DNA from: Sphingobium sp. HWE2-09 | GTDB taxonomy: Bacteria; Pseudomonadota; Alphaproteobacteria; Sphingomonadales; Sphingomonadaceae | Assembly: GCF_035989265.1 (NCBI RefSeq) | Contig: NZ_JAYKZX010000001.1 | Location: 818,501-882,500, forward strand | Length of the DNA stretch: 64,000 nucleotides | Reading direction: 5' to 3' | Shown: positions 38,582-62,788 of the stretch, piece after piece | How positions within the stretch are numbered: position 1 is the stretch's first letter | Layout: every line of letters starts with the position of its first letter | The notes under the pieces: model-generated | Database searches by the model: none | The model's input: only the letters and a program-made list of their open reading frames with translations | Told to the model about the DNA's origin: nothing | Position numbers and translations under genes: made by a program

Positions 38582-39496
38582 TCATTCGAAGAATGCCACC
38601 GCCCGAACTTCGATGCTGGACCGCGTCTTCGTGTCGGGCAGGCTGCTATCGTGGAATGCCGTATGCGGGCAGCGCCACGTCACATCATGATCGCTGTCCT
38701 GGAATTTGAACAACAGCACATCGTCCGCCGCCATGTTAGAGAAATACCACCAGCGATGACGATCGCGATGGCGGAAGATGGAGGCGGCGATCATCTGGTC
38801 CTCGCCCGCGACCGGCGCGGTCAGCGCGTCGCCGACCGGAAATTCATCGACCACGAATAAGGTGTTCGACGTCGCTTCCTCATCCGACACGGTGCGGCCG
38901 TCGCACACCGCCAGCGGCCAATCCTGTGGCCCCGGGGTAAAGGTGCGCCAGAAACTAACGCAGACATAGCGTTTATAGCCCGGCCCATCGGGGAAGGCGG
39001 CGGCATAGGCGCGTTCGGCGGCGCGGCGGCCGGTAATCTCGTTATAATCGACATGCGCCTCGCCCGCCGGGGGCTGAATGCCGCCTTCATGGCGGTAATT
39101 CTCCACCTTCTGCTGTGCGCGCGCGGTGAGATCGGCAGAGGTCCGGATCATCCAGCCGCCCGCCGATACGCAGGACGCGCCGGTCAGCGCCTGGATCGCG
39201 CCTTCGCATTCGCGCAGGTACAGGCGATCCACGTCTTCCTTGTCGAAGAAGTCGGTGATCGCGCTGGGATGCCTGCCCAGCATGAAGCCATGGGTGTCGA
39301 AACGGAAATGATCGCGGATCGGCATCCCGTCGCGCACCACCATGCGATGGTCGCCATAGGTGCCGGTATTAATCTCCACGCCCCGCGACACATAGCGCCG
39401 CGTGACGAAATCGCCTTCGTCCAGATAGCGGATCAGCGCGGGCGCCTGCCGCGCGCTATCCTCTACGTCATCTTCGATGCGGGGCAGGCTCGCCAT
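38582..39496 (-). CDS. CmcJ/NvfI-family oxygenase-like protein
   Basis: A 304-residue protein resembling the CmcJ/NvfI (GA4-desaturase-like) family, fungal and actinobacterial enzymes related to Fe(II)/2-oxoglutarate oxygenases. A HxD pair is at His148-Asp150 (EAHVDYNEITGRRAAE) and a later His in WRCPHTAFHD could complete a metal site. The segment VCVSFWRTF...WPLAVCDGRTV is typical of the family. It overlaps the upstream aldehyde dehydrogenase by TGATG and is the last gene of ligF-ligG-aldh, so it probably acts on a beta-ether metabolite or its ring substituent. No function for such a protein in lignin breakdown is known to me. Confidence 0.72.
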   Translation of the reverse strand: MASLPRIEDDVEDSARQAPALIRYLDEGDFVTRRYVSRGVEINTGTYGDHRMVVRDGMPIRDHFRFDTHGFMLGRHPSAITDFFDKEDVDRLYLRECEGAIQALTGASCVSAGGWMIRTSADLTARAQQKVENYRHEGGIQPPAGEAHVDYNEITGRRAAERAYAAAFPDGPGYKRYVCVSFWRTFTPGPQDWPLAVCDGRTVSDEEATSNTLFVVDEFPVGDALTAPVAGEDQMIAASIFRHRDRHRWWYFSNMAADDVLLFKFQDSDHDVTWRCPHTAFHDSSLPDTKTRSSIEVRAVAFFE

Positions 39497-40932
39497 CAGG
39501 CCACCTCTTCGGGGAGCGCCCCGATGACCGACTTGACCTCCAGAAATTCCTCCAGCCCATATTTGCCGAATTCGCGGCCATTGCCCGATTGTTTGTAGCC
39601 GCCAAACGGCATGTCCATGACCAGCCCGCCTGCATTGACGAACACCGCTCCGGCCCGCAGCCGACTGACGAATTTACGCGCGTGGGCGGGGTCGCCCGCG
39701 ACATAGGCGCCCAGACCATAGGGCGTGTCGTTGGCAATGCGGATGGCGTCTTCATCGTCTTCATAGGGCATGAGGACGAGGACCGGGCCGAAAATCTCCT
39801 CCTTCGCGATCGTCATGTCCGGCGTGACGTTGGCGAAGACGGTGGGGCGGACATAGCTGCCTTCGTCCATTCCCTCGGGACGGCCGGTGCCGCCGGTGAC
39901 CAGGGTCGCGCCTTCGTCTATGCCGGTCTGGATCAAGCCCTGGATGCGGTCCCACTGACGCTGGCTGACCACCGGGCCGATATGATCGCCCTCGCTCTGC
40001 GGATCGCCGACTTTTTTGGCGGCGAACATCGCGCCGACCTTTTCGGCCGCTTCGTCATGCTGGGATTTGTGGACCAGCATCCGGGTGGGCGCGACGCAAC
40101 TCTGGCCACTGTTGAGCAGCACGCCGCCCACGCCCCCGGGCAGCGCCTTGTCGAGCGGCGTCCCTTCCAGGATGATGTTGGGCGACTTGCCGCCCAGTTC
40201 CTGGGCGACGCGCTTGACCGTGTCGGCGGCGTTCTTCGCCACCATGATGCCCGCGCGGGTGGAGCCGGTGAAGCTGACCATATCGATATCGGGATGTTTG
40301 GCGAGCGCAGTGCCGACGCCTTCGCCGTCGCCCTGTACCAGGTTGAAGACGCCCGGTGGCACGCCGGCCGCGTCCAGCACCTCCGCGAAGATGGCGGCGC
40401 AGCTGGGCGCTTCTTCCGACGGCTTGAGGATCATCGTGCAGCCCGCCGCCAGCGCTGGGCCGACCTTGGCGACGATCTGGTTCATCGGCCAGTTCCATGG
40501 CGTGATCAGCGCGACGACGCCGATCGGTTCCCGCACGACGCGGTTGTCGCCGATCTTTTCGGAAAATTCGTAATTTTTGAGCGCATTCAATGCCTGGCCC
40601 AGATGCCCCAGGCCCGATCCGGCTTGTGCCGTCTGGGCGATGGAGATGGGGCAGCCCATTTCGGTCGCGATGGCGCGCGCGATGTCGGGCACGCGCTTTT
40701 GATATTCGGCGACGATGCGTTCCAGCAGCGCAACGCGCTCCTCGCGGCTGGTCTGCGAAAATGTCTCGAACGCGCGGCGCGCGGCGATGACGGCGGCGTC
40801 CACGTCCGCGGCCGTGCCCAGGATCAGGTCGGCGGCTTTCTGGTCGGTGGCGGGGTTGATGACCGTGACGGTGCGGCCGCCCTGGCTGTCGACCCACTGG
40901 CCGTCGATATATTGTTGCGTCGTATTGGGCAT
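39496..40932 (-). CDS. Aldehyde dehydrogenase of the ligFG operon
   Basis: A 478-residue ALDH with catalytic Cys in SGQSCVAPT, Glu in QELGGKSPN, oxyanion Asn in TPWNWPMNQ and cofactor loop FTGSTRAGI. ATG 40932 gives the normal beginning PNTTQQYIDGQWVDSQGG. It lies 10 bases after ligG and overlaps the CmcJ-like gene. In SYK-6 the ether-cleavage product hydroxypropiovanillone is oxidised first to an aldehyde and then to vanilloylacetic acid; a dehydrogenase in the ligFG operon is a good candidate for that second step. This is inference from position. Confidence 0.88.
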   Translation of the reverse strand: MPNTTQQYIDGQWVDSQGGRTVTVINPATDQKAADLILGTAADVDAAVIAARRAFETFSQTSREERVALLERIVAEYQKRVPDIARAIATEMGCPISIAQTAQAGSGLGHLGQALNALKNYEFSEKIGDNRVVREPIGVVALITPWNWPMNQIVAKVGPALAAGCTMILKPSEEAPSCAAIFAEVLDAAGVPPGVFNLVQGDGEGVGTALAKHPDIDMVSFTGSTRAGIMVAKNAADTVKRVAQELGGKSPNIILEGTPLDKALPGGVGGVLLNSGQSCVAPTRMLVHKSQHDEAAEKVGAMFAAKKVGDPQSEGDHIGPVVSQRQWDRIQGLIQTGIDEGATLVTGGTGRPEGMDEGSYVRPTVFANVTPDMTIAKEEIFGPVLVLMPYEDDEDAIRIANDTPYGLGAYVAGDPAHARKFVSRLRAGAVFVNAGGLVMDMPFGGYKQSGNGREFGKYGLEEFLEVKSVIGALPEEVA

Positions 40933-40942
40933 GGGAAAATCC

Positions 40943-41764
40943 TTATGCGGGAATGAGGCCGAGATCGGCGTCCGTGGCGGGGGCGCCCCATTTGTCGCGG
41001 GGCGGCAGCGGGCGGCTGTCCCAGGGCGGGGACAGCGCGAAACTGGAGACGGTGCGGCCTTCGGGCAGGCGACCATTGCCGCCGCCCTGGCTGTAATCAT
41101 AATAGAGCGTCATCAGTTCCTGATGGCTGTGATGACGCTGCGCCACGGGATGTGCCAGGCACGCCTCGCGCCAGCGCAGCAGCCGGGTCAGATGCTGCGG
41201 GATCTGATAGGCCTCATAATAGTCGAGGAACCACAGCCGCTTGAACATCGGCGTGAAGGCGACCTCCGCCCAGCCGAACCGGTCGAACAGATAGTCGCCG
41301 TCCGGCGCATAATGGCGCAGATAGTCGTCCAGCCGCGCATATTGCGCGTCCACTTCGGCCTTATGCTCGTCGCGCTTGGCGGGATCGCGGTTCAGGATCA
41401 TGCGGTAGCCTGCGCCGGTGAACTGGCCGTCGGTCGCGCACAGCATCGCTTCGACCGCATGTTCATAGGGGTCCTGGCGCGCCACCGGCGGATCGGGAAA
41501 ACGATCCTCAAAGTAGCGCATGATGACCATGCTTTCCTTGAGCGTCGCGCCATTTTCCAGTTCCAGCGCTGGCAGCGCGGTGGTGCCGCGCGTCTTGGCG
41601 AGCAGCCAGTCGGGGCGTGGCTGCGATATGTCGATCTCATGATCGGCCATGATCCCGTCCAACCCTTTGAGGTCGAGCAGCAGCTCGATCCGCTCGGAAA
41701 AGGGGCAGCCGGGAATATGATACATGCGCAGCTGCCCTGCGGCCGGTTCGTCCTGCCAGCCCAT
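40943..41764 (-). CDS. ligG: Glutathione lyase LigG (omega-class GST)
   Basis: A 273-residue omega-class GST that removes glutathione from the beta-ether cleavage product (glutathionyl-hydroxypropiovanillone), giving the free ketone and GSSG. Identity to Sphingobium SYK-6 LigG is evident over the full length: MYHIPGCPFSERIE with the catalytic Cys20, DISQPRPDWLLAK, GTTALPALELENG, GAGYRMILNRD, FGWAEVAFTPMFKRLWFLDYYE, YYDYSQGGGNGRLPEGR and the unusual C-terminal tail PPRDKWGAPATDADLGL. The gene lies three bases after ligF. Stereopreference (beta-R thioether in SYK-6 LigG) cannot be read from sequence. Confidence 0.95.
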   Translation of the reverse strand: MGWQDEPAAGQLRMYHIPGCPFSERIELLLDLKGLDGIMADHEIDISQPRPDWLLAKTRGTTALPALELENGATLKESMVIMRYFEDRFPDPPVARQDPYEHAVEAMLCATDGQFTGAGYRMILNRDPAKRDEHKAEVDAQYARLDDYLRHYAPDGDYLFDRFGWAEVAFTPMFKRLWFLDYYEAYQIPQHLTRLLRWREACLAHPVAQRHHSHQELMTLYYDYSQGGGNGRLPEGRTVSSFALSPPWDSRPLPPRDKWGAPATDADLGLIPA

Positions 41765-41767
41765 GGA

Positions 41768-42523
41768 TCAGGCCGCCGCCGTCGCCGCAGGGCGGGGCGG
41801 CATTTCGCTTTTGGACTTGGCGAACATCGCCTGGGCAGCAGGCCGGGCGGCGATCCGCTCGATCCAGGCGACCAGATGCGGCGTCGCTTCCTTGTTGACC
41901 ATATCGGCGTACCCATGCTGCATCCCGTTCGCGATCGCGAAGTTGCAGATATCCGCCAGCGTATAATCCTCGCCCGCCAGCCAGGGGCTTTGCGACAGCC
42001 GCTGTTCCAGACGGTCGATCGATACGCGGATCTTGCGCATTTCCTCGTCCAGCACCTCTTTGGGAAAGCCCGCGCGAGCGCTGCGCCACTTGGCTTGCTG
42101 TTCGGGGATCGGGATATGCTTCAGCTTCTCCTCAAACTCGGCGTCGGACAACTTGCGCGCCATCGGGCCGATCATCCGTTCCCAGCCGATGGTGGAGACG
42201 CACCAGCAGAAATATTCGTCCACCCATTTGGTCCAGACGCGCATTTCGGCGATCTGCACCGGATCGACCGGGCGCAGGCGGATGGCGTCGGGAAAGGCGT
42301 CCTCCAGATATTCGCAGATCACCGTCGATTCGGTGATGATATGCCCGTCATGATCGAGCGCGGGCACCTGGCCGCGCGGGTTGATCGCCTTGAACCAGGG
42401 TTCGTGATGTTCGAACCGCGTCGGGTCGACGAAGCGGGGGGTGAAATCCAAGCCCTTTTCATACAGGGCCAGCAGGGGTTTCAGGCTATTGGCGGCCGGA
42501 CCGAAGCTGTAGAGCGTCAACAT
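41768..42523 (-). CDS. ligF: Beta-etherase LigF (beta-S-selective GST)
   Basis: A 251-residue GST that cleaves the beta-aryl ether of the ketone form of guaiacylglycerol-beta-guaiacyl ether, adding glutathione to the beta carbon and releasing guaiacol. It follows SYK-6 LigF closely: LYSFGPAANSLKPLLALYEKGL, PRGQVPALDHDGHIITESTVICEYLEDAFPD, EMRVWTKWVDEYFCWCVSTIGWE, YTLADICNFAIANGMQ. The N-terminal Ser/Asn pair (GPAANSLKP) implicated in glutathione use is present. It heads the minus-strand operon ligF-ligG-aldh-cmcJ. The 217-base gap to the divergent Nu-GST has CTATCA/TGATAG elements (about 42617 and 42666) but no clear promoter. Confidence 0.95.
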   Translation of the reverse strand: MLTLYSFGPAANSLKPLLALYEKGLDFTPRFVDPTRFEHHEPWFKAINPRGQVPALDHDGHIITESTVICEYLEDAFPDAIRLRPVDPVQIAEMRVWTKWVDEYFCWCVSTIGWERMIGPMARKLSDAEFEEKLKHIPIPEQQAKWRSARAGFPKEVLDEEMRKIRVSIDRLEQRLSQSPWLAGEDYTLADICNFAIANGMQHGYADMVNKEATPHLVAWIERIAARPAAQAMFAKSKSEMPPRPAATAAA

Positions 42524-42740
42524 ACGCTATCCTCACCTTATCGTTGGCGGCGTCTGGTGCGCCTTCGGGGCAAGTGGTGCCGGGCGATCGGGCGGGCCGC
42601 AAGTCGTCTGTCGATACTATCAGTGACGCTACCCGGCAGCGCGGCGCTCAACCTGTCAGTTTCAATGATAGCGCCGCCACTCGCCTTGCGTGCGGGGCCG
42701 GGCTTTGCTTGGGTGGCAACAAGAAAAGCGGGAGAGAATG

Positions 42741-43409
42741 ATGCTGGAACTGCTAACGTCGGAGACGCCCAATGGGTGGAAAGTCTCGATCCTGCTGGAG
42801 GAACTGGGCATACCGTATAAGGTCACGCCGATCGCGCTGACCGATCTGGTGCAGAAGCAGGATTGGTATGTCGCGCTCAACCCCAATGGCCGCATTCCCA
42901 CGCTGGTGGATCATGATGCTGACGGGTTCGCCATTTTCGAATCCGGCGCGATTCTGCTGTATCTTGCGGAAAAGTTCGGGCGGTTCATCCCCGCCGATCC
43001 GCAGGACGGCAGCCGCGTGATCCAGTGGGTGATGTGGCAGATGTCCGGCCTTGGCCCAATGATGGGGCAGGCGACCGTCTTCAATCGCTATTTTGCCGAA
43101 AAGCTGCCCGCCGTGATCGACCGCTATGTGCGCGAAAGCCAGCGATTGTTCGGCGTGATGGACGCGCGATTGGCGGACCGCGACTATCTGGTCGGCGACT
43201 ATTCGATCGCGGACATCGCCTGTTTCCCCTGGGTGCGGGGACATGACTGGGCCGGGGTCGATATGAGCGGTTTTTCCAACCTACAGCGCTGGTTCGACAG
43301 AATTTCAGCGCGGCCAGCGGTGCAGCGCGGGCTGCTTGTCCCGACGCCGCCGACCGATGCGGACATGGCGGAAAAGACTACGAAACAGGGAAAGACCATC
43401 ATCGCGTGA
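42741..43409 (+). CDS. Nu-class glutathione S-transferase (candidate thioether lyase)
   Basis: A 222-residue GST of the Nu class (YfcG/YghU-like): MLELLTSETPNGWKVSILLEELGIPY, NPNGRIPTLVDHD, FAIFESGAILLYLAEKFGRF, and QWVMWQMSGLGPMMGQ. Nu-class enzymes bind two glutathiones and reduce disulfides; in Novosphingobium aromaticivorans one is reported to release glutathione from both stereoisomers of the beta-etherase product. Sitting divergent from ligF-ligG it probably overlaps LigG in function. Two ATGs (42738, 42741) follow GGAGAGA; the second has the better spacing. It overlaps the thioesterase gene by four bases (GTGA). Confidence 0.88.
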   Translation: MLELLTSETPNGWKVSILLEELGIPYKVTPIALTDLVQKQDWYVALNPNGRIPTLVDHDADGFAIFESGAILLYLAEKFGRFIPADPQDGSRVIQWVMWQMSGLGPMMGQATVFNRYFAEKLPAVIDRYVRESQRLFGVMDARLADRDYLVGDYSIADIACFPWVRGHDWAGVDMSGFSNLQRWFDRISARPAVQRGLLVPTPPTDADMAEKTTKQGKTIIA

Positions 43410-45058: not shown

Positions 45059-45895
45059 TTACGCCAGTGCCTCGACCGCCGGTTCTTCGACCAGCTTCGC
45101 CAGCCGCGCCGCACTGACATCGTCCAAAGGCGCGAAGAGCAAAAGCCGCTGGCCTGGCGCTTCCTCGATCGCGTAGCTGGTGTGGCGGAACATGATTTCG
45201 CCGACGCCGGGCATATCGGCGATATTGGTATCCTCGAAATGGGCCATGATGTCCGATTCCTGCCAATAGCGGCTGAAAAATTCGGACTGTTCCATCATGT
45301 CGGCGATGATGCCTTCGAACACGTCGGGCTGGGCGGTGCGGCTATAATCCCATTTGAAGCGGGCGATCAGGCGGCGGCACATATCCTGGAATTTGTCCGG
45401 GTCGGCGCGATAGCGCGGGTTGAGCATCAGGATGCGGAACAGGTTGCGTTCCTCGCGCGGCATGGCGCTATAATCGCGAAAGGCGCGGGCGACGAGCCGG
45501 TTCCAGCCGATCACCGTCCAATCCTCCACGATCACCAGCGCCGGGATCGATAGCGCATCCATCAGATGCTGCGTGCCCGCATGGATCGTCTCGTCCGGGC
45601 GGCGCGCCAGTGGCGGCGGGCGATGCTGGGCCAAGGCGAAGAGAAATTCGCGCTCATTGGGGTTGAGCCGCAGGGTTCGGCTCAGCCGTTCCAGCATCGG
45701 CGCGGATAGCTGCACCTCCCGCCCCTGTTCGAACCAGGTGTACCAAGTGACGCTCATCCCCGCGAGGGTCGCCACCTCTTCGCGCCGAAGTCCGCGCGTG
45801 CGGCGGCGTTCGCCAGGCGGCAGGCCGACTTCCGACGGGGCCAGCTTCGCCCGCGCGGCTTTCAGGAACCGCGACAATTCTTCCCGTTGTGCCAT
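45059..45895 (-). CDS. XRE-family regulator with MmyB-like ligand domain
   Basis: A 278-residue regulator with an N-terminal helix-turn-helix (RTRGLRREEVATLAGMSVTWYTWFEQGR) and the MmyB-type C-terminal PAS-like domain (ALVIVEDWTVIGWNRLVARAF, RNLFRILMLNPRYR). Such proteins often control adjacent catabolic genes and may bind a fatty or small acid. It is divergent from the beta-keto-acid cleavage operon. The symmetric box TTACTCGTAA at 45907-45916, 11 bases before its ATG, is a plausible operator for both directions. Confidence 0.87.
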   Translation of the reverse strand: MAQREELSRFLKAARAKLAPSEVGLPPGERRRTRGLRREEVATLAGMSVTWYTWFEQGREVQLSAPMLERLSRTLRLNPNEREFLFALAQHRPPPLARRPDETIHAGTQHLMDALSIPALVIVEDWTVIGWNRLVARAFRDYSAMPREERNLFRILMLNPRYRADPDKFQDMCRRLIARFKWDYSRTAQPDVFEGIIADMMEQSEFFSRYWQESDIMAHFEDTNIADMPGVGEIMFRHTSYAIEEAPGQRLLLFAPLDDVSAARLAKLVEEPAVEALA

Positions 45896-46014: not shown

Positions 46015-46890
46015 TTGGCTGGCAAGCTATTTGTGACATGCGCGGTAACGGGAAGTTCGCCGATGCCCACGCACCCCAATTTCCCCTTCCGCCCCGATCA
46101 TGTCGCCGCCGAAGCGCTGGCCGCTGCCGAAGCGGGCGCGGCGATCATCCATCTGCATGTGCGCGATCGTGAAACCGGCGATCCGTCGCAATCGCTGGAG
46201 GATTATCGCGAAGTCGTCGGCCTCATTCGGGCGAAGAATAACGAAGTCATCCTGAACGTCACCACCGGGCCGGGCTGCACCTGGATGCAGGGGGACGAAG
46301 ACCCCGCCGTCTGCGGCCCCGGGACTTTGATGTTCACGGCCGAACGGCGGCTGGAGCATATTCTCGATCTCAAGCCCGATATGTGTACGCTCGACATCTG
46401 CACCATGCAATTGTGGGGCGGGGTGGCGATCAACCTTGACCCCATGATCACCAAGATGGGGCATATGATCCAGGATGCGGGCGTGTTGCCGGAGATCGAA
46501 TGTTTCGAGGCGGGCGATTTCGTCTTTGCCGACGATCTGATGGCCAAGGGCGCGATCCCCAAGGGCGTGCCCTTCACCTTCGTGCTGGGCACCAAATACG
46601 GCCTGCCCGCGACACCCGAAGCGATGCTCTATGCCAAGAACCAGATCCCACGCGGGGCGCAGTTCACCGGCTTTGGCGTCAGCCGCCACAGCTTTCCCAT
46701 GGCGGCGCAGTCCGCGTTGCTGGGCGGCCATATCCGCGTGGGGTTTGAGGATACGATCTATCTGCGGCGCGGCAAACTGGCGGCCGACAATGCCGACCTC
46801 GTGCGCTGGGGCGTCGAGATAGTCGAACGGATCGGCGGCGACATCGCCAGCGCGGGTGAGGCGCGGGCGATGCTGGGCCTGAAACAATAA
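46015..46890 (+). CDS. Beta-keto-acid cleavage enzyme (BKACE)
   Basis: A 291-residue zinc TIM-barrel enzyme of the BKACE family (formerly 3-keto-5-aminohexanoate cleavage). It condenses a beta-keto acid with acetyl-CoA and releases acetoacetate plus the CoA ester of the shortened acid. Zinc ligands His46 and His48 are in IIHLHVRDRETGDPSQ; CAVTGSS and EIECFEAGD are also typical. The start is TTG 46015, supported by CAGGAGAGT eight bases upstream. It heads an operon with two LigD-type dehydrogenases. Beside ligF/ligG and an aroyl-CoA thioesterase, vanilloylacetate is an attractive substrate: the products would be vanilloyl-CoA and acetoacetate, as I recall for VceA of Sphingobium SYK-6. Confidence 0.87.
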   Translation: MAGKLFVTCAVTGSSPMPTHPNFPFRPDHVAAEALAAAEAGAAIIHLHVRDRETGDPSQSLEDYREVVGLIRAKNNEVILNVTTGPGCTWMQGDEDPAVCGPGTLMFTAERRLEHILDLKPDMCTLDICTMQLWGGVAINLDPMITKMGHMIQDAGVLPEIECFEAGDFVFADDLMAKGAIPKGVPFTFVLGTKYGLPATPEAMLYAKNQIPRGAQFTGFGVSRHSFPMAAQSALLGGHIRVGFEDTIYLRRGKLAADNADLVRWGVEIVERIGGDIASAGEARAMLGLKQ

Positions 46891-46904: not shown

Positions 46905-47839
46905 ATGACGCAGACAGCACAGGCGCCCATGGGCGACGTAAGCGGGAAAACCGCCTTCATCACTGGCGGGGCGGACGGCATCGGCTTAGGGATCGCGCGC
47001 GCACTGGTGCGGGCCGGGGCCAATGTGGTGATCGCCGATATTCGCGAGGATGCGCTGGCGCAGGCCAAGGCGGACCTGGCCGCCGACGCGCAGGTGGAAA
47101 TCGTGCAGCTGGACGTGACCGACCGTGCCGCTTTCGTGCGCGCGGCCGATGCGGCGGAGGCCCGGTTCGGCAAGATTCACATGCTGATCGGCAATGCCGG
47201 GGTCGGGGTGCTGGGTCCGGTGCTGGATGCGCGATTCGATGACTGGGACTGGGGGCTTGGCGTCAATCTGGGCGGGGTGATCAATGGACTCGTCACCATA
47301 TTGCCGCGCATCAGGGCGCATGGCGAAGGGGGGCAGATCGTCACCACATCGTCGCAATCGGCGCTGATCCCGATCAACGGATCGGCCATCTATACCGCGG
47401 CCAAGGCGGCGGTGTTGGGTCTGTCCGAAGCGATCCGGGGGAGCTGGCAACGGTCGATATCGGCGTGTCCGCCTTCATGCCGGGACCGGTGCAAAGCAAT
47501 ATCGGCCATAGCAGCCAGTTGCGCCCTGACGCCTTCCGCGAAAATAGCGGTTATCGCCAGCATGAGGCGGCGATGGAGCAGCGGCCCGTCTCGCCGCTTT
47601 GGATGAGCGCTGACGAAGTGGGTGAGCGGGTGCTGGCGGGCATCCGCGCCAATGATCTCTATATCCTGACCCATCCCGAATTTGCGGACGGTATGCGGAC
47701 GCGGTTCGATGCGATCCTGGCATCGATGCCCGATGAGCGGATCAACCAGGAACGGGCAGGGGCCATCGGCTTTCTACTGTCCAACCCGGTGTTCGACGAT
47801 CAACTGGCCCGGCGCACGGCGCAGGAGCCGGTGGCATGA
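46905..47839 (+). pseudogene. LigD-type short-chain dehydrogenase with a one-base frameshift
   Basis: The gene encodes an SDR related to SYK-6 C-alpha dehydrogenases (LigD/L/N/O): FITGGADGIGLGIA, LDVTDRAAF, FDDWDWGLGVNLGGVINGLVT, SSQSALIPINGSAIYTAAKAAVLGLSEA. After EAIRG the frame breaks; the family C-terminus (VSAFMPGPVQSNI, NDLYILTHPEF) continues in another frame to 47839. One extra G in the G5 run at 47437-47441 restores a 311-residue protein whose stop overlaps the next gene by ATGA, which strongly suggests that the ancestral gene was intact. As written it would end at 47606 with a false tail. Confidence 0.82.
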
Positions 47840-51971: not shown

Positions 51972-52021
51972 TGTCTTCCTCTCCATCTTTGGCGCGGATG
52001 TTTTCATCTGTCGCCGCTTGC

Positions 52022-54335: not shown

Positions 54336-55099
54336 GCGGGTTCGCTTTCGAGCAGGGAGATGCGGCGGGCGAGGTCGGTGCGGCCCAAGGCCCAGCAGGC
54401 GCGGGTGGCGGGACGCGCATAGATGGCGCGCAGCCAGCGCATGATGTTGGGCGTCAGCTCGTCATTGCATAGATGCGGCTGCGACAGCGGCATGGCATAG
54501 GCGAGGTTGAAGCCGTTGATGTCGGCCAGGCCATATGTGTCCGAAGCCAGCCATTCCCGCTGGCCCAATGCTTCCTCCAGATAGCCAATGCCAAGGCCCA
54601 CGCGGCGTTTCGATTCGGTCATCTCTTCGTCCGAAAAGGCGCCGTTGATCGCCTTGCGCCAGGCGACGCGCCGTTCGGGCATGGGGATGCGGTCGATCGC
54701 CGCTTCCAGTTCGGCCGGGTCTTTCTGGCGCACGGACGGGCCGACGAAGATGCTCCAGCCGATCATGGAGAAGCTGGGCGCGAGCCACTGGTCGAGGAAC
54801 TTCATCCACCAGCGGGCGCGCCATTGGTCCACCGGATCGGCGGGCATCAGGCGGGGGCCGTCGAACGCTTCGTCCACATATTCCATGATCGCGGTGGATT
54901 CGGTCAGCACCAGGTCGCCATGCGTCATCGCGGGAATGGTGCCGAGCGGATTGACTGCCAGATATTCAGGTTTGTGCTGGTCGAAATTCAGCAGGTCGAG
55001 ATAATGGCTGTCGAACGCGACGCCCTTTTCGAACAAGGCCAGCATGGGCTTGCCCGAATTGGCGTTGGGTTCCCAATGATAGAGGGTGACGTTGGTCAT
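54332..55099 (-). CDS. LigF-related GST, candidate partner in a heterodimeric beta-etherase
   Basis: A 255-residue GST closer to LigF than its neighbour: LYHWEPNANSGKPMLALFEKGVAF, NPLGTIPAMTHGDLVLTESTAIMEYVDEAF, WWMKFLDQWLAPSFSMIGW, IPMPERRVAWRKA and YGLADINGFNLAYAM. The glutathione-site Asn/Ser (NANSGKP) is kept. It is the first enzyme gene after the TonB receptor in this operon. Together with the coupled GST it may cleave the beta-R ether, which would complement LigF (beta-S). The window has no LigE/LigP-type enzyme, so the R route would otherwise be missing. Confidence 0.82.
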   Translation of the reverse strand: MTNVTLYHWEPNANSGKPMLALFEKGVAFDSHYLDLLNFDQHKPEYLAVNPLGTIPAMTHGDLVLTESTAIMEYVDEAFDGPRLMPADPVDQWRARWWMKFLDQWLAPSFSMIGWSIFVGPSVRQKDPAELEAAIDRIPMPERRVAWRKAINGAFSDEEMTESKRRVGLGIGYLEEALGQREWLASDTYGLADINGFNLAYAMPLSQPHLCNDELTPNIMRWLRAIYARPATRACWALGRTDLARRISLLESEPA

Positions 55100-55161: not shown

Positions 55162-57684
55162 TTAGAATTTCTTCTTCACGGTCACCGCCCATTCGCGCGG
55201 ATTGCCCGGGCGGCCCTTGCGGACCCCGCCGCCTGCGCCGCGCAGGTCGAGAACGGAGAGAAGATAATATTTGTCGAACAGGTTGGTGACTTCGAACGAC
55301 ACGTCGAGATCCTCATCCGCATTCTGCCAGGTGACGCGCGCATTGGCGAGCGTGTAGGCTGGCACGAAATTGAGGATGCGTTCGCCGTTCACGACCGATG
55401 GGCCGCCATATTTCTTGTCTTCATAGGTGACGTCGAAGCGCGGCGTCAGGCTGCCTGCCTTGTCGAGGTCGATCTTATACTGGGCGCCGACGCTGAATTT
55501 CCAGGGCGGCGAGGCGGGCGGGTCGGAGGGCGATACGCCGCCGGGATTGGTGCCGCCCGGCACGGTCGGCGATGTCGCCGCCGGATCCAGGCTGCCGGCG
55601 ATATATTTGAAGTCCAGATAGCTGATCGACGCATCGATCGCGAGGCCGTCGATCGGGTAGGCGGACAGTTCCGCCTCGAACCCCTTGACCCGCGCGTCGC
55701 CCGCGTTGAGACGGGCGGCGCAGGGCGCGGTCGGGCAGGTCAGCACCGGAATCTGAATATCGACATAGTCGTTGATGAAGGCGGACGCATTCAGGCGGAC
55801 CCGACGATTAAAGAAGTCGCTTTTGAACCCGACTTCATAGGCGGTCAGCTTTTCCGGGCGGAAGGCGATGACCTGCTGCGTGGTGAAGGGGCGCGGGTTG
55901 GAGCCGCCGCCCTTGAACCCGGTCGATACCGATCCATAGACCATCAGATTGTCGGTCAGCCGATAATCGGCCGCCACGCGATAGTCCCAGCGCTTGGCGC
56001 TGTAATGGGCGGTCAGGCCCGACAGAGCGGTGACCGTTTCGGTCGTGTTGCCGTTGCCGTTATAATCGAGCGTATCGGCGCCCGAATAGCCGATCCCATA
56101 GGCGACGCCGACAGGATCGAGGAAGCGGTTGACCGACCCGTCATAGTTCAGGCGATAATAGGTCTGGTCCTTGGTTTCGGCGGTGTAGCGCAAGCCGCCG
56201 CTCAGCGTCAGGCGATCGATCGGTTTCCAGGACAGATGGGCGAACACCGCCTTGGCTTCCGCCTTGGTCGGGTCGGGCTGGCGGAATTGCAGCGGATAGA
56301 CCGCGACGTAGCGAATGTCCTGGAACGAGTCATAGGTGGACTTCTGCTTGAAATAATAGCCGCCGACCGTACCGTTCAGACTGTCGCTCAGGTCCATGTT
56401 CAACCGAACTTCCTGGCTGAAACTCCAGTTTTCCAGCGAGTTTCGGCCGAAATTGGTATTGGCAGGCGACAGGTCGTCATCGGAATCGAACTGGGTGTCG
56501 AAACTGCGATAGCCGGTGATCGACGTCAGCTTGAAGGCGTCGGACAGGGTATAGTTGATCTGGCCCGACACGCCCCAGCCCTTATAGAGGCTGCGGTCGG
56601 TGCCCTGGGTCGCGGCGAGCGGCGTGCCGGCTGCGCCGAACGGATCGACCGGGATCGGCGGCGTCCAGACGCCCGCTGGCTGGCCGGTGCCGATATAGTT
56701 GCAATAGCGGCCGCAGATGAAGCGGTTGTCGTACGGGATGCCGGGTGCGGGATTGGTGTTGGGCGAATTGATGGTGGCCGTGTCGAGCAGCACTTCGCCC
56801 GCGATCGTATGTTCGTCGCGCGTATAGTCGCCGATGACCGTCACATCCAGCTTGTCGGTCGGTTGCCAGGCCAGGATGCCGCGGATCGCCTGATAGCCAA
56901 CGCCACCCAGCTTGCTGATGGTGCAATCGCCGGCAGACCGGGTGGACGGGATGCCGCTGCCCGGATTGGCGCAGCCATAATCGATCCGGTCGACAAAGCC
57001 GTCCTGCTGCTTGGCGACGCCCGATATGCGCATGGCCAGCGTGTCGGTGATGCCGAAGTCGGCGGCGGCGCGGATGCCGATGCGGTTGCGGATGCCGTAA
57101 TTGACTTCGACAAAGCCGCCGCCGTCGCCGGTGGGGCGCTTGGAATAGAGTTTGATCGCGCCGCCTTCGGCATTGCGGCCCGCCAGCGTGCCTTGCGGTC
57201 CGCGCAATATTTCGACGCGGTCGAGGTCGAGCAGTTCGAAGACCGCGCCGGTCAGCTGCGGATAATAGACATCGTCGATATAGATGCCGACGCCCGGTTC
57301 ATAGGCGGGGTTGAAGTCGTTCTGGCCGATACCGCGGATCGATGCGGTGATGGAAGGGCCGAAGGACGCGCCCTGGGGTTTCAGCGACACGTTGGGGGCG
57401 GCGTCGGCCATTTGGGCGAGGTTGGTCTGACTCTTGGCCTCCAGCTCGGCAGCGCCCACGGCGGTGATGGAGATGGGCGTGTCCTGCAAGCGCTGGGCGC
57501 GGAACTGCGCGGTGACGACGATGTCGGCCACCGAACTTTGCGGCTCCGTACCCTGCTCGGCCGCCTGCGGCGCGGCGGCGGGCGGTTGCGCGGAGGATTG
57601 CGCCGACGCGGGCGTGGTGATTGCGAGGATGGAGGCCGACGCCAACAGGGCGCGCGACATCATTGCACGAAGATCGTGTTGCAT
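55162..57684 (-). CDS. TonB-dependent outer-membrane receptor heading the paired-GST operon
   Basis: An 840-residue receptor: signal peptide (MSRALLASASILAITTPASAQS), Pro/Ala/Gln spacer, TonB box (VADIVVTAQFRAQRL), plug (DTPISITAVGAAELEAKSQ; RVEILRGPQGTLAGRNAEGGAI) and barrel ending VTVKKKF. It is 62 bases upstream of the GST pair, so receptor and cytoplasmic enzymes probably form one transcript, and it is a paralogue of the receptor at 34193. The most likely cargo is a lignin dimer or oligomer too large for porins. A MarR-type repeat lies 79 bases before the ATG. Confidence 0.9.
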   Translation of the reverse strand: MQHDLRAMMSRALLASASILAITTPASAQSSAQPPAAAPQAAEQGTEPQSSVADIVVTAQFRAQRLQDTPISITAVGAAELEAKSQTNLAQMADAAPNVSLKPQGASFGPSITASIRGIGQNDFNPAYEPGVGIYIDDVYYPQLTGAVFELLDLDRVEILRGPQGTLAGRNAEGGAIKLYSKRPTGDGGGFVEVNYGIRNRIGIRAAADFGITDTLAMRISGVAKQQDGFVDRIDYGCANPGSGIPSTRSAGDCTISKLGGVGYQAIRGILAWQPTDKLDVTVIGDYTRDEHTIAGEVLLDTATINSPNTNPAPGIPYDNRFICGRYCNYIGTGQPAGVWTPPIPVDPFGAAGTPLAATQGTDRSLYKGWGVSGQINYTLSDAFKLTSITGYRSFDTQFDSDDDLSPANTNFGRNSLENWSFSQEVRLNMDLSDSLNGTVGGYYFKQKSTYDSFQDIRYVAVYPLQFRQPDPTKAEAKAVFAHLSWKPIDRLTLSGGLRYTAETKDQTYYRLNYDGSVNRFLDPVGVAYGIGYSGADTLDYNGNGNTTETVTALSGLTAHYSAKRWDYRVAADYRLTDNLMVYGSVSTGFKGGGSNPRPFTTQQVIAFRPEKLTAYEVGFKSDFFNRRVRLNASAFINDYVDIQIPVLTCPTAPCAARLNAGDARVKGFEAELSAYPIDGLAIDASISYLDFKYIAGSLDPAATSPTVPGGTNPGGVSPSDPPASPPWKFSVGAQYKIDLDKAGSLTPRFDVTYEDKKYGGPSVVNGERILNFVPAYTLANARVTWQNADEDLDVSFEVTNLFDKYYLLSVLDLRGAGGGVRKGRPGNPREWAVTVKKKF

Positions 57685-57957: not shown

Positions 57958-58422
57958 TCAGACGTAGATGCGGCGCAGCAGTTCCACCAGCATCGCGGTT
58001 TCGGCCGGACTGAACCGGGCCTTGAGCCAATTTTCATGCTCGGCGATGCAGTGGCGCGCTTCGGCGAGCGACTCGCGGCCTGCGTCCGTCAGGCTCAGCG
58101 TCTGGCGGCGGCGGTCTTGTGCGGACGCGCCGCGGGTCAGGAAACCGCGGTCCTGCATGCGGTTGACGATCGCCATCACGCTCGCCCGGTCCATCTTGAG
58201 GCGACGGCCGATGTCCGCCTGGGCGATGCCGGACTGATCCTGGATCAGCCACAGCACGGCGACCTGCTTCTGGGTCAGACCCAGGTCGCTGAAGGTTTCG
58301 GTGAAATGTTGATAGACGGCCGCGCTGGCGAGGCGGACATGGAAACCGACAAGATCGTCTATGCCGCTGAGGCGAGGATCCGGGAAGATGTCGAGGGGCG
58401 GCACGTCGTTCATGGTATTCAT
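57958..58422 (-). CDS. MarR-family transcriptional regulator
   Basis: A 154-residue winged-helix repressor. The core is complete: LGLTQKQVAVLWLIQDQSGIAQADIGRRLKMDRASVMAIVNRMQDRGFLTR followed by the wing SAQDRRRQTLSLTDAG. MarR proteins of aromatic pathways typically release DNA on binding an aryl-CoA or phenolic; FerC of SYK-6 responds to hydroxycinnamoyl-CoAs. It lies between the TonB-GST operon and the MFS genes, and the WWTGTWW-N7-ATACRAW repeat is found before its own gene and before four other transcription units, so it is the best candidate for the protein that binds it. Confidence 0.87.
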   Translation of the reverse strand: MNTMNDVPPLDIFPDPRLSGIDDLVGFHVRLASAAVYQHFTETFSDLGLTQKQVAVLWLIQDQSGIAQADIGRRLKMDRASVMAIVNRMQDRGFLTRGASAQDRRRQTLSLTDAGRESLAEARHCIAEHENWLKARFSPAETAMLVELLRRIYV

Positions 58423-58473: not shown

Positions 58474-58494
58474 AATGTAAATGTGACATACGAT
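58474..58494. promoter_or_regulatory. MarR-type operator-like inverted repeat, site 3 (autoregulation)
   Basis: AATGTAA, seven bases (ATGTGAC), ATACGAT, 52 bases upstream of the marR start codon. The position suits autorepression. Confidence 0.55.
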
Positions 58495-58514
58495 TTATCG
58501 CCGCGTCTTTGGCA

Positions 58515-60119
58515 TCATACCGTCTCGCCCGCCGCCCGCGCGCGGGGCAGCAGGCTGGCATGGTCGCGTTCGACCCGCCGCAGCAGGACCAGCAGGATCA
58601 GCACCAGCGGCGGGGCCACCCAGTTGATCGACAGGATCGCGCCGCCCAGGTCGCCGCCGCGCGCATCGCTGATCATCCCCACGGCGTAGGGGCCGATGCC
58701 CAGGCCGAAGATGGTCGACACGACGATATAGAGGCTGACGATCAGCCCGCGCATTCGCGGCAGCACCTGTTCGAACAGCACGGCATAGAGCGGCGGCATC
58801 CACATGGTCAGGATCAGGCTGTAGAGGATGAAGCGCAGGTAGAAGCCCCCGGCATCGCCCGCGCGATAGACCCAGAGCGCCAGCAGCGGCGACACCGCCA
58901 TGGCGAACAGCGCGACCCAGACGCGGCGTGACAGGCGATGCGCGCCGATCCGGTCGGACAACGGCCCGGCCAGCAGCGGGCCGACCACGCCCAGCGCCGC
59001 GGACAGCAGTCCGAATTGCAGGCCGGTGTCGGCGGGGGACAGGCCATAGCTTTTCATCAGGAAGGAGGGGGTAAAGCCCATGACGCCATAGTTGATGACG
59101 CTTTGCAACGCGCCCGCGGCGATGCACAGCATCAATGAGGGATTGCCGGTGATCAGCGCATAGGCGACCGGATCGCGCCCTTTGAGATTTTGCAGCAGAT
59201 TGGCGATGACGAAGGCGCCAAAGCCAATCACGCTCCATTGGACGACATGCGGACTGACCGCCAGGCCATGCAGCAGCAGGGGCGGGCGCGGGGAAAAGGC
59301 CTCCGCCCAACCGATCGCCAGCAGCATCGCCACGATGATCAACCCCAGCAGGCCGATATTGATCGCCCAGTCCCGCCCACTGGCCCGTGTCCGGCCAAGG
59401 CTGATCCAGTGAAAGCCCGGCGTCACGGCGCCCAGCACGTTCAGGCTGGCGCGGAACGGATGCGGATCAGGCGGGGTGGGGATGCCGTCCATCACGCCGC
59501 GCCGCGGTTCGGGCAGGCGGCTCATGAGAAGGGCGATGATAAAGCCGGGCGACGCGGCGACGGCGAAGGCGAATTGCCAGCCCTTCAGCCCCAGCGGTGC
59601 GCCGCCCCCTGCATAGCGCGCGTCCCACCATTGCGCCGCCATGCCGCCAATGACGAGCGATCCGCCCAGGCCGATGGCGATCGCGGCGGCCATCACCGCC
59701 ATCACCATGCCGCGCTTTTCGCGGGGGAAATAGTCGTAGCTGAGGCTGGTGCCCGCCGGTTGCGATGCCGCTTCGCCAATGCCGACGCACAGGCGCGAGA
59801 GCATCAGCGTGAAGAAGCCGGTGGCGAAGGCCGCCCCGCCGGTGGCGAGCGACCAGAAGCCGATCGTGATCGCCAGCAACCGGGTGCGTATCCACCCGTC
59901 CGCGAGGCGCCCGAGCGGCAGGGAGAAGAGCGCATAGAACAGGGCGAAGACGGTGCCGTAGAGCAGCCCCATTTCCGCGTCGCCGATATGGAGGTCCGCC
60001 TTGATCGCGGGGGCCAGGATCGCAAGGATGTTGCGGTCGAGCAGGCTGACGAGGTTGGTGGCGGCGATGAGGGCCAGCGCATAATAAGCGGTGCTGCGCG
60101 AGGGCGTGGGCGCGGTCAC
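58515..60119 (-). CDS. MFS transporter (spinster/aromatic-acid type)
   Basis: A 534-residue major facilitator with about 12 membrane helices. The N-terminal half shows LDRNILAILAPAIKADLHIGDAEMGLLYGTVFALFYALFSLPLGRLAD, including the MFS loop-2-3 motif, and CVGIGEAASQPAGTSLSYDYFP. A long cytoplasmic loop sits between helices 6 and 7. Sphingomonad relatives are usually found beside aromatic or steroid catabolic genes. It is coupled to a 30-codon frame upstream and lies under MarR-type site 4, so inner-membrane uptake (or export) of the regulon's substrate is likely. Confidence 0.87.
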   Translation of the reverse strand: MTAPTPSRSTAYYALALIAATNLVSLLDRNILAILAPAIKADLHIGDAEMGLLYGTVFALFYALFSLPLGRLADGWIRTRLLAITIGFWSLATGGAAFATGFFTLMLSRLCVGIGEAASQPAGTSLSYDYFPREKRGMVMAVMAAAIAIGLGGSLVIGGMAAQWWDARYAGGGAPLGLKGWQFAFAVAASPGFIIALLMSRLPEPRRGVMDGIPTPPDPHPFRASLNVLGAVTPGFHWISLGRTRASGRDWAINIGLLGLIIVAMLLAIGWAEAFSPRPPLLLHGLAVSPHVVQWSVIGFGAFVIANLLQNLKGRDPVAYALITGNPSLMLCIAAGALQSVINYGVMGFTPSFLMKSYGLSPADTGLQFGLLSAALGVVGPLLAGPLSDRIGAHRLSRRVWVALFAMAVSPLLALWVYRAGDAGGFYLRFILYSLILTMWMPPLYAVLFEQVLPRMRGLIVSLYIVVSTIFGLGIGPYAVGMISDARGGDLGGAILSINWVAPPLVLILLVLLRRVERDHASLLPRARAAGETV

Positions 60120-60208
60120 AGGGCGCAGCCGGTCTGGGCGATCGGGTCGGGCCCGACCGATGTCAGGACGAATGGATCGCTGCCGTCGGCGCGCAACGCA
60201 TAGCGCAT
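60116..60208 (-). CDS. Possible 30-residue leader or accessory peptide
   Basis: A short frame beginning MRYALRADGSDPFVLTSVGP and ending AQTGCAL. It has a good ribosome site (AAAGGACAAAGG next to the ATG) and its stop overlaps the MFS start by ATGA. These features suggest it is translated and couples to the transporter. It has no membrane helix. It could equally be the remnant of a larger gene, as the frame is open further upstream. Confidence 0.35.
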   Translation of the reverse strand: MRYALRADGSDPFVLTSVGPDPIAQTGCAL

Positions 60209-60308
60209 CCTTTGTCCTTTATTGCTGACGGGATATGACGCCCGCGATGCATGGCGTTCGGCTATCAATAATCTCATATCCCGTACCGCCCGCTTATTAT
60301 CGCTTGAA

Positions 60309-60329
60309 ATTGTATGGTTCACTTACGGA
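60309..60329. promoter_or_regulatory. MarR-type operator-like inverted repeat, site 4
   Basis: On the minus strand: TCCGTAA, seven bases (GTGAACC), ATACAAT. The stretch GTAAGTGA...ATAC is shared with site 5. It lies 101 bases before the 30-codon frame and 190 bases before the MFS start, just after the other MFS gene's stop. Confidence 0.45.
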
Positions 60330-61754
60330 TCAGGCGCTTTGCGCCGCCAGTCTTTCCACTTCCTCGCCATAGGGGCGGATCGCGCGGATCATGCAGAACG
60401 TGGCGATCGGCAGCAGGATGGCGGCCGTCAGCAGCATCGCCTTCCACAGCTGGGTGGAATCGCCGACGATATAGTCCTGCACCAGCCCAACGATGAAGCT
60501 GCCCATCGCCCCGAAGAAGGTGAACATGAAGAGGTAGATCGCCGTCACCTGCCCGCGCATGGCATTGGGCGCCACGCGCTGGATCGCGGCATTTTGCGGA
60601 ACCGCGCCGGCCATGCCGAACATCGCGCCGATGCTGGAGACTGCCAGCGACGCATAGCCATTGGGCATCAGCGGCGCCAATATGGCGCAGACGGTGACGC
60701 ACCCGAAGAAGATCGCCGCGGCGCGCACATTGGCGTCGGCATGGCGCTTGGCCAACCATTCAACGAAGATGCCGCCCAACAGCAGGCCCAGCAGCGACGC
60801 GACCAGCGTCATCGACCCCATGACCGCGCCGATTTGCGCCTCGTTCCAGCCATAGGTGCGGATCATGAAGGGGACGCGCCAGAATTGCAGGCCGAACACT
60901 TCGATCGCGCTGAGCGCCAGTCCCGCGAACAACGGATAATAGACGCGGCGCTTGGCATGGATCGCCTTGGCGGCGTCCAGCCCGGTGAAGGTCAGGATAC
61001 GGCGGCCAAGCGAAGCGCTGACAGGCACGGGCGCGATGCCGGGGGCTGACGCCTGGCGCGGCGGTTCCTTGATAGTCAGGAACAGCAGGGACACGCACAA
61101 AGCGGGCAGGCCCAGCCAGATCAACAGCCATTGCCAGCCCAATATGGTGAGGCCGCCATGCTGGGTCGGCGCCCATCCCACCGCATGGGCGATCAACATG
61201 CCGCCGATCACCGGTCCCAATGTGGTGCCGCCGATAAAGCCGAATTGCAGCAACGCGAAGGCGCGGGTCAGAATACGCGGCGGAAAAGCGTCGGCCAGCA
61301 GCGAATAGGAGGATGGCGCATGGGCCGATCCCCCCGCCGCCAGGAAGACGCGGGTGCCGACGAACTGGCCGAAATTCTGCGCGATGCCGCCCAGCGCGGT
61401 GATGACGCCCAAGGCTGCGCATCCGCCCGCCAGCACGAATTTGCGCGGAAAGATATCGGCCAGGCGCGCGAGCGGGATGCCGACGAACAGATAGCAGATG
61501 ATGCTGGCGGGACCGGCGAGAAAGCCGAGCTGCGAATCGGACAGGCCGAAATCCGCCTTGATCCGTTCGGCCAGCATGGCGAACACCACTTGTTCGAAGA
61601 AGGTGACGAATGTCGCCAGGATGATGACGAACAAGGCCCAATAGGCCGCCTTTGTCGAATAGGACGGGAGCGTAGGCCGCGCGCCATCAGCGGCGACTTC
61701 CCCCGCTTCGTTCCACGGCAGGTCGGTTGCAATCGGGGCGGGCGCCAGGGCCAT
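60330..61754 (-). CDS. Second MFS transporter
   Basis: A 474-residue 12-helix major facilitator, similar in type to the one downstream (FFEQVVFAMLAERIKADFGLSDSQLGFLAGPASIICYLFVGIPLARLADIFPRK; LAAGGSAHAPSSYSLLADAFPP). It is divergent from the LigD-type dehydrogenase at 61886 with MarR-type site 5 in the gap. Two related carriers next to each other may handle different members of the substrate family, or import and export. Confidence 0.87.
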   Translation of the reverse strand: MALAPAPIATDLPWNEAGEVAADGARPTLPSYSTKAAYWALFVIILATFVTFFEQVVFAMLAERIKADFGLSDSQLGFLAGPASIICYLFVGIPLARLADIFPRKFVLAGGCAALGVITALGGIAQNFGQFVGTRVFLAAGGSAHAPSSYSLLADAFPPRILTRAFALLQFGFIGGTTLGPVIGGMLIAHAVGWAPTQHGGLTILGWQWLLIWLGLPALCVSLLFLTIKEPPRQASAPGIAPVPVSASLGRRILTFTGLDAAKAIHAKRRVYYPLFAGLALSAIEVFGLQFWRVPFMIRTYGWNEAQIGAVMGSMTLVASLLGLLLGGIFVEWLAKRHADANVRAAAIFFGCVTVCAILAPLMPNGYASLAVSSIGAMFGMAGAVPQNAAIQRVAPNAMRGQVTAIYLFMFTFFGAMGSFIVGLVQDYIVGDSTQLWKAMLLTAAILLPIATFCMIRAIRPYGEEVERLAAQSA

Positions 61755-61813
61755 GGCCTTCTCCTCTCCACCATTCCCCCTTTTTCACAGGGGTGAAATT
61801 TCGGCTTGGCGAA

Positions 61814-61834
61814 TTTGTAAGTGATCTATACGAA
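61814..61834. promoter_or_regulatory. MarR-type operator-like inverted repeat, site 5
   Basis: TTTGTAA, seven bases (GTGATCT), ATACGAA, in the 131-base gap between the second MFS gene and the divergent LigD-type dehydrogenase, 60 and 52 bases from their start codons. Confidence 0.5.
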
Positions 61835-61885
61835 TATGGCGAGCAGAAAATGGATCGTCGTTAAAAATCGACACAGGAGAGTGGG

Positions 61886-62788
61886 ATGCTGGATTTTAGC
61901 GGTCGGACGGCCTTCGTCACCGGGGGCGGCAATGGCATTGGCTTGGGCTTGGTGCGCGCCTTGCTGGCGCAGGGGTGCAAGGTCGCCATCGCCGACATTC
62001 GTCAGGACGCGATCGACGCGGCGCTCAAGACGCTCGACAATCAGGACGTGGTTGGTGTCCAACTCGATGTCGCATCCCGCACTGGTTTTGCTGAGGCGGC
62101 CGATCGGGTGGAGGCGGCGCTGGGGCCGGTCAGCCTGGTCTTCAACAATGCCGGCATCAACATCTTCCAGACGATCGACGAGTTCAGTTACGACGATTGG
62201 GACTGGGTGATGGGTGTCAATTTGCACGGGGTCATCAATGGTGTGATGACCTTCGCCCCGCGGATGAAGGCGCTGGGGCAGGGCGGCCATATCGTCAATA
62301 CGGCGTCGATGGCGAGTTTTCTGTGCGGTCCGGCGCCCGGCATCTACAACACCACCAAATTTGCGGTGCGGGGGTTGAGCGAATCCCTGCGCTACAGTCT
62401 GGCGCCCCATGGCATCGGCGTATCGGTGCTGTGTCCCGGTCTGGTAAAAAGCCACATCTTCGCCAGCGACGAAATCCGGCCTGCTGCCTTGAGCGCGGGG
62501 GCGAAGCCGGTGGACAGCGCCGCGGTCGATCGACTGGCGCAATTGCACCAGTTCGGTATGGAGCCTGATGTGATCGCTGCGCGCACGTTGGAAGCGATGC
62601 AGGAAAACCGCTTCCATATCTTTCCCCATCCCGAATTTCGCGATGAGCTGGCGACGATCTTCGATGAGGTGCTGGCCGATTTCCGCGATTATCCGCAGGA
62701 CGCCGGTTTCGACCAGCGCACCGGTTTTGAAAAGATGCGCCGCGACAATTATGCCGCGGCGCGCCGTGCGTCCCGCGAACGGGCTTAG
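61886..62788 (+). CDS. LigD-type C-alpha dehydrogenase (SDR), stop formed at a mobile-element end
   Basis: A 300-residue SDR of the same group as 47836: FVTGGGNGIGLGLVRALL, NNAGINIFQTI, SYDDWDWVMGVNLHGVINGVMTFAPRM, Tyr-Lys in GIYNTTKFAVRGLSES, and C-terminal NRFHIFPHPEFRDELATIFDEVLADF. AGGAGAGTGGG precedes the ATG. It probably oxidises the benzylic alcohol of a lignin dimer. The TAG stop consists of the TA and first G at the left end of the inserted element, so the original C-terminus may have been longer than ASRERA. The body of the enzyme is complete. Confidence 0.87.
   Translation: MLDFSGRTAFVTGGGNGIGLGLVRALLAQGCKVAIADIRQDAIDAALKTLDNQDVVGVQLDVASRTGFAEAADRVEAALGPVSLVFNNAGINIFQTIDEFSYDDWDWVMGVNLHGVINGVMTFAPRMKALGQGGHIVNTASMASFLCGPAPGIYNTTKFAVRGLSESLRYSLAPHGIGVSVLCPGLVKSHIFASDEIRPAALSAGAKPVDSAAVDRLAQLHQFGMEPDVIAARTLEAMQENRFHIFPHPEFRDELATIFDEVLADFRDYPQDAGFDQRTGFEKMRRDNYAAARRASRERA

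Follow-up and report, generated by a model that had tools for sequence, protein, structure and literature searches.

A probable beta-aryl ether catabolic island in Sphingobium sp. HWE2-09 with a predicted BaeA-BaeB-type etherase pair

We analyzed a stretch of 64,000 nucleotides from Sphingobium sp. HWE2-09, here called the window, to which all coordinates refer, and find that one region of it is, as a whole, best explained as a catabolic island for beta-O-4 (beta-aryl ether) lignin dimers, which may run from the dimer to vanilloyl-coenzyme A (vanilloyl-CoA). In the pathway that we propose, short-chain dehydrogenases/reductases (SDRs) of the LigD type would oxidize the C-alpha alcohol of guaiacylglycerol-type dimers, LigF would cleave the beta(S) ketone and a BaeA/BaeB heterodimer, in place of LigE/LigP, the beta(R) ketone, both using glutathione, and LigG together with a Nu-class glutathione S-transferase (GST) would strip off the glutathione to give the achiral hydroxypropiophenone (HPV). 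A glucose-methanol-choline (GMC) oxidase encoded elsewhere in the genome or the pyrroloquinoline quinone (PQQ) dehydrogenase of the island would, with aldehyde dehydrogenases (ALDHs), convert HPV to vanilloyl acetate, from which a beta-keto-acid cleavage enzyme (BKACE) would make vanilloyl-CoA and acetoacetate with acetyl-CoA; TonB receptors and major facilitator superfamily (MFS) proteins would import the dimers. C-alpha oxidation, ether cleavage and glutathione removal are predicted from orthology to tested enzymes, and the steps from HPV through vanilloyl acetate to vanilloyl-CoA are less certain. The island is real and nearly complete, it belongs to a known kind that has numerous close relatives, and its fresh value lies in the BKACE lead.

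RESULTS

The two GST genes at 54332 and 53586, which overlap by 4 bases, are best read as encoding a BaeA-BaeB-type beta(R)-etherase heterodimer. The proteins were compared with their counterparts in Sphingobium xenophagum NBRC 107872, the strain whose proteins were themselves expressed; BaeA matches at 93% and BaeB at 81% identity, both above the published 50% criterion. In a 17-row GST tree, built without LigG and Nu-class rows, window BaeA (support of 99/100) and BaeB (99/96) stand with their S. xenophagum partners and apart from LigF and LigE, with support of 98/98 for the BaeA clade and 100/100 for the BaeB clade. The original prediction had named an alignment with BaeA and BaeB as one way to check this pair and a grouping away from them as refuting it; the tree places both proteins with the tested ones. 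Among solved structures, LigF is the best match of the GST at 54332 (E 5.2e-45) and the second match of the GST at 53586 (4.8e-11), behind 6to3 (1.8e-11). S. xenophagum BaeA and BaeB are reported to form a heterodimer that cleaves only the beta(R) form of alpha-(2-methoxyphenoxy)-beta-hydroxypropiovanillone (MPHPV) in vitro, and BaeAB of Novosphingobium aromaticivorans is reported to be required for beta(R)-MPHPV in vivo after the loss of ligE (PMC6369299). Like the known pairs, Saro_2873/Saro_2872 of N. aromaticivorans and those of Novosphingobium PP1Y and S. xenophagum NBRC 107872, the window genes are adjacent and overlapping and conserve the catalytic Asn14 and Ser15 in BaeA and Ser14 in BaeB; in the latter, Pro13 replaces the Asn, as it does in S. 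xenophagum BaeB. The pairing is kept among relatives, with BaeB at an identity of at least 48% behind BaeA in 77 of the 80 loci (out of 142 relatives) that were fetched with BaeA, two of them partial, and the contigs of the remaining three end less than 300 bases from BaeA.

Unlike N. aromaticivorans, which is described as carrying LigE besides BaeAB (PMC6369299), the genome of the window yielded no LigE or LigP, the curated beta-etherase model NF042997 giving 0 matches there at E 1e-5. Of 94 genomes of the genus, 11 gave the same model a match above its curated cut-off, and a SYK-6-like genome among them showed two proteins, as expected for LigE and LigP; with this working control we rule out a LigE hidden elsewhere in the genome of the window. 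BaeAB is therefore the sole R-etherase of a known type seen there. The idea in the original prediction that both stereoisomers would be handled without LigE/LigP, with a heterodimer for the R form, is the reading that best fits the sequence, given the BaeAB tree, the orthology of LigF and LigG, and the NF042997 search.

By alignment, LigF and LigG of the window are orthologues of the experimentally tested proteins. Each is 66% identical to its counterpart in the SYK-6-like genome, whose LigF is identical to that of SYK-6 itself; Asn12/Ser13 of window LigF align with Asn13/Ser14 of SYK-6 LigF (4xt0), and the catalytic Cys-Pro of LigG aligns with that of 4g10. The Nu-class GST is found in the same position in Novosphingobium mathurense, at 72% identity, and its place and class agree with those of GST3 of Novosphingobium MBES04, with which it was compared by position and class (arrangement as described in PMC4609964). 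An identity as a NaGSTNu/LigQ-type enzyme was considered and ruled out, NaGSTNu (5uun, E 1.2e-34) lying well below YfcG-like chains, of which 4eci (6.2e-83) is the best solved match. LigF, LigG, the Nu-class GST and the GST pair, which had been noticed within 24 kb, are all present close to where they had been placed, with scores far beyond chance.

Three LigD-type dehydrogenases had been counted as well, and all three were located. Their identity to the gene in the LigD position of the SYK-6-like genome is 44% over 191 residues for SDR1 (46905), 47% for SDR2 (47836) and 38% for SDR3 (61886). SDR1 is frameshifted in a run of G near 47.43-47.44 kb, through either true decay or an assembly error, so that no more than two of the three can be taken with certainty as intact in this genome; the near relative L168 carries an intact SDR1 of 313 amino acids, the single locus of ten that a check with a narrow motif resolved. 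The best match of SDR3 is 3ioy, an SDR (E 1.3e-134), and two further matches, 4ya6 and 4yae, are both named C alpha-dehydrogenase. Besides this frameshift, the earlier inventory had omitted BKACE, the ALDHs, the CoA ligase and the PQQ dehydrogenase.

Across the genus sample, LigF (at least 65% identity) is present in 30 of 94 genomes, LigG (at least 66%) in 29, BaeA (at least 68%) in 27 and BaeB in 26, all of the last with BaeA. The LigF genome without a LigG match (G257) is 80% complete, the BaeA genome without a BaeB match (G255) has 450 contigs, and G225, with a match of only 43%, was left out of the BaeA count (28/94 match at E 1e-60). All 30 LigF genomes carry BaeA (27) or LigE (11), 8 of them both, and the 64 genomes without LigF gave no BaeA or LigE match at the E-values used. 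Since BaeA occurs without LigE in 19 of the 30, BaeAB looks in that clade like the usual R-etherase and not like a backup.

The BKACE gene encodes a PF05853 protein with the BKACE fold by fold search and with His46 and His48, which we take to be metal-related residues, invariant in 45 rows; it shares domain, fold and both histidines with the known family (Kce; Paracoccus 8rio/8rip/9hnf). Its nearest solved relative is 9zsc, which was not among the fold-search rows, and against the 3-oxoadipate BKACE model, whose cut-off is 350, it reaches 139.8 bits. The genomes of the genus that hold BKACE at an identity of at least 72% are exactly the 30 with LigF, whether or not the two genes are linked (32/94 match at E 1e-60; G204 and G280, with matches of only 42-45%, were left out); BKACE lies within 25 kb of LigF in 17 of them, some contigs being too short to tell. 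BKACE and LigF distances are congruent across the genus (Mantel r 0.96), and the genome with SYK-6 LigF holds an orthologue of 75% identity. We lean toward the reading that this BKACE is a dedicated aryl-beta-keto-acid cleavage enzyme for vanilloyl acetate, kept by every LigF genome of the genus.

The published functions of VceA, which is reported to convert vanilloyl acetate, and of VceB, a vanilloyl-CoA thioesterase (PMC11837543), fit the chemistry of BKACE, and the window BKACE may be the VceA of SYK-6, to which it was likened by function. In the SYK-6-like genome (L160, G144:C1:2682001-2700000), BKACE lies far from ligF, flanked by a benzoylformate-decarboxylase-like gene on one side and an IclR regulator on the other, and two zinc-dependent alcohol dehydrogenase (ADH) genes precede it together with the decarboxylase-like gene. 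VceA is presumably encoded by SLG_24960. Gene counting would make BKACE SLG_24960 if the 372-amino-acid ADH is SLG_24930 and SLG_24950 if the 335-amino-acid ADH is; this argument is weak and is not used as proof. SLG_24930 is called an aryl-alcohol dehydrogenase (PMC12052742), and a check of lengths against that paper yielded nothing. Among the papers listed in searches on VceA and on BKACE in lignin work, none was seen to link BKACE to vanilloyl acetate, which is no proof of absence.

The genes form three adjoining modules between 38.6 and 60.1 kb, followed by a second MFS gene and the third SDR up to 62.8 kb (Table 1). Module 1 (38.6-43.4 kb) is a minus-strand run of a CmcJ/NvfI-type oxidoreductase, an ALDH, LigG and LigF, with the Nu-class GST divergent from ligF; in module 2 (45.1-48.7 kb), an MLTR-type regulator is divergent from BKACE, and two LigD-type SDRs come after BKACE; module 3 (49.0-60.1 kb, minus strand) holds an amidohydrolase, a PQQ alcohol dehydrogenase, a CoA ligase, BaeB, BaeA, a TonB receptor, a MarR regulator and an MFS transporter. 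Many of the 80 loci again show the PQQ dehydrogenase, the CoA ligase and the amidohydrolase close to BaeAB, the last with an identity of 74-99% wherever it occurs, and this hints at an unrecognized step linked to BaeAB. The CmcJ/NvfI-type oxidoreductase is not known to have a role in the beta-O-4 pathway; it lies beside ALDH1-LigG-LigF in seven of the nine fetched relative stretches in which ALDH1 is next to LigG, L149 and L159 being the exceptions. GMC oxidases of the HpvZ/HpvY type are absent from the window, and four GMC oxidoreductase genes lie elsewhere in the genome, as do three LigB-type dioxygenase genes, all of them outside the window.

Table 1. Predicted genes of the beta-O-4 region, by window position
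Feature	Coordinates	Strand	Supporting detail
CmcJ/NvfI-family oxidoreductase, final gene of the LigF-LigG run	38582..39496	-	NF041278, 259.9 bits (cut-off 80)
ALDH1, candidate for vanilloyl acetaldehyde to vanilloyl acetate	39496..40932	-	PF00171, E 2.2e-152; start inferred from translation
Predicted LigG-type omega-class glutathione lyase	40943..41764	-	Cys-Pro motif; E 3.2e-118 to SYK-6 LigG 4g10
Predicted LigF-type beta(S)-etherase	41768..42523	-	E 4.2e-104 to SYK-6 LigF 4xt0
Nu-class GST, divergent from ligF	~42738..43409	+	E 6.2e-83 to 4eci; position of MBES04 GST3
MmyB/MLTR-type helix-turn-helix regulator, divergent from BKACE	45059..45895	-	PF17765, E 3.2e-29
BKACE, proposed vanilloyl acetate:acetyl-CoA cleavage	46015..46890	+	PF05853
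LigD-type SDR1, frameshifted near 47.43-47.44 kb	46905..47839	+	listed open reading frame stops at 47606
LigD-type SDR2, candidate C-alpha dehydrogenase	47836..48729	+	47% to LigD-position gene of SYK-6-like genome
Amidohydro_2 protein of BaeAB module	48980..49852	-	PF04909, E 2.6e-39; start inferred
PQQ-dependent alcohol dehydrogenase, C-terminal cytochrome c, lipoprotein-like N terminus	49842..52007	-	TIGR03075, 632 bits (cut-off 480); start inferred
AMP-forming acyl-CoA ligase	52022..53581	-	PF00501, E 3.7e-65; starts 4 bases past baeB stop
BaeB-type subunit	53586..54335	-	81% to S. xenophagum BaeB; tree 99/96
Predicted BaeA-type catalytic subunit	54332..55099	-	93% to S. xenophagum BaeA; tree 99/100
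TonB-dependent receptor (TBDR1), upstream of baeA	55162..57684	-	PF00593, E 8.9e-42; adjoins BaeA in L163, L165, L031, L029
MarR-type regulator of BaeAB module	57958..58422	-	PF12802, E 4.5e-15; adjoins TBDR1 in L163, L165, L031, L029
MFS transporter near BaeAB module	58515..60119	-	PF07690, E 2.9e-41; present in L163, L165, L031 (S. xenophagum NBRC 107872), L029
Second MFS transporter	60330..61754	-	PF07690, E 3e-36
LigO/LigL/LigD-type SDR3	61886..62788	+	E 9.4e-68 to 4ya6, 6.4e-54 to 4yae

DISCUSSION

Several observations weigh against this explanation of the island. SDR1 is frameshifted, and no thioesterase match was found among the window open reading frames that were scanned, a genome-wide search not having been made. 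S. xenophagum NBRC 107872, whose cluster is almost that of the window, is reported to convert some guaiacylglycerol-beta-guaiacyl ether (GGE) to pathway intermediates with no gain in biomass and to be unable to use vanillate (PMC5892560), and the downstream part may therefore fail in that strain. Confidence in the BKACE structure model is middling (predicted local distance difference test score, 71.8), few independent origins stand behind the 30 LigF genomes, and within the LigE clade alone the BKACE-LigF distance correlation is 0.23. Outside the genus, the link is weak, with BKACE in 1 of 24 LigF genomes, and G034 has BKACE but only a 50% LigF relative. Moreover, the vanillate-use and pca clusters of Methylobacterium are described as holding a BKACE proposed for beta-ketoadipate (PMC8963497, PMC12379598).

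The Methylobacterium and S. xenophagum reports also favor a different explanation, in which the ethers are cut but the products lead nowhere: the system would be a dead end or a sensor, making HPV-type ketones without assimilating them, and BKACE and the CoA ligase would serve other acids, e.g., beta-ketoadipate. The reported accumulation of phenylpropanones with no energy use in Novosphingobium MBES04 (PMC10866074) is consistent with this. We consider such a dead end unlikely, since BKACE follows LigF through the genus whether linked or not, the window protein stays far below the 3-oxoadipate BKACE cut-off, an ALDH gene lies directly behind ligG, and the genome with SYK-6 LigF also holds BKACE, SYK-6 being reported to grow on GGE (PMC11837543).

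The original prediction had also taken the clustering as unusual, on the grounds that these genes are scattered in the best-known strains. Scattering is described for N. aromaticivorans DSM 12444, where BaeAB is nevertheless clustered with LigF2 (PMC6369299), but not for SYK-6, MBES04 or PP1Y: the SYK-6 ligDFEG genes are an operon, MBES04 has GST4-5-6 adjacent and the Nu-class GST3 divergent, and the organization in PP1Y is almost identical (PMC7691349). Given these published clusters, and given that 10 of the 30 genomes of the genus with LigF, including one that we infer to be S. xenophagum, hold LigF, BaeA and BKACE inside 25 kb, the claim fails. As in ligDFEG, LigF and LigG of the window are neighbors in the same order, each about 66% identical to its counterpart, but ligE is missing between them, an ALDH and the CmcJ-type gene come after ligG, and the SDRs are several kb off. 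The Nu-class GST divergent from the LigF-LigG run is shared with the GST3-GST4-GST5-GST6 cluster of MBES04 and its PP1Y counterpart (PMC4609964, PMC7691349), whereas the window has no LigE-type GST5 and has BaeAB about 11 kb away instead.

It could also be argued that BaeAB stands beside LigF-LigG by chance and that, together with the CoA ligase, PQQ dehydrogenase and amidohydrolase, it forms a module of its own that serves other beta-ethers or aryl substrates. In three genomes the BaeAB module and LigF are far apart (in G267 all three modules are apart, with BKACE far from both, in G242 the BaeAB module alone is apart and in G276 the LigF-LigG module alone), and BaeAB of Novosphingobium subterraneum (L061) has a LigF2-type gene nearby and no LigG within the flank. 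Against this, MPHPV is a substrate of S. xenophagum BaeAB in vitro, and in N. aromaticivorans without ligE BaeAB is reported to be needed in vivo (PMC6369299). Every BaeA genome in the genus sample also has LigF, and we regard a chance neighborhood as slightly less probable than a dead end. General detoxification, with no specific lignin role for these GSTs, is highly improbable: GST folds are promiscuous and the Nu-class protein has YfcG-type enzymes as its nearest relatives, but the strong orthology to dedicated etherases, the catalytic residues that are kept and the conserved company of SDR, ALDH and TonB receptor genes argue against it.

Further genes of lignin type lie upstream, at 24345-38089, and include an enoyl-CoA hydratase, an SDR, an NmrA-type reductase, a PQQ dehydrogenase, a TonB receptor, an ALDH, a flavin adenine dinucleotide enzyme resembling eugenol/vanillyl-alcohol oxidase (E 1.8e-136 to 8s7t) and a lignostilbene-dioxygenase-like protein (E 1.4e-108 to 6xm6). 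G207, G212 and G238 preserve the gene order between the enoyl-CoA hydratase (~24 kb) and ligF, with no SDR4 match in the G212 stretch. Because this upstream order is largely kept, the island may serve several lignin linkages.

In conclusion, the window presents a natural beta-O-4 system that seemingly depends on BaeAB alone for the R isomer and has many close relatives. If BKACE does act on vanilloyl acetate, a single island would cover the whole way from the intact dimer to the monomer as its CoA ester, and it would be a Sphingobium answer to the vanilloyl acetate step, for which, according to a 2025 paper, further enzymes are still to be found in N. aromaticivorans (PMC11837543). The co-occurrence of BKACE and LigF in the genus offers a concrete and inexpensive way to test the breakdown of vanilloyl acetate.

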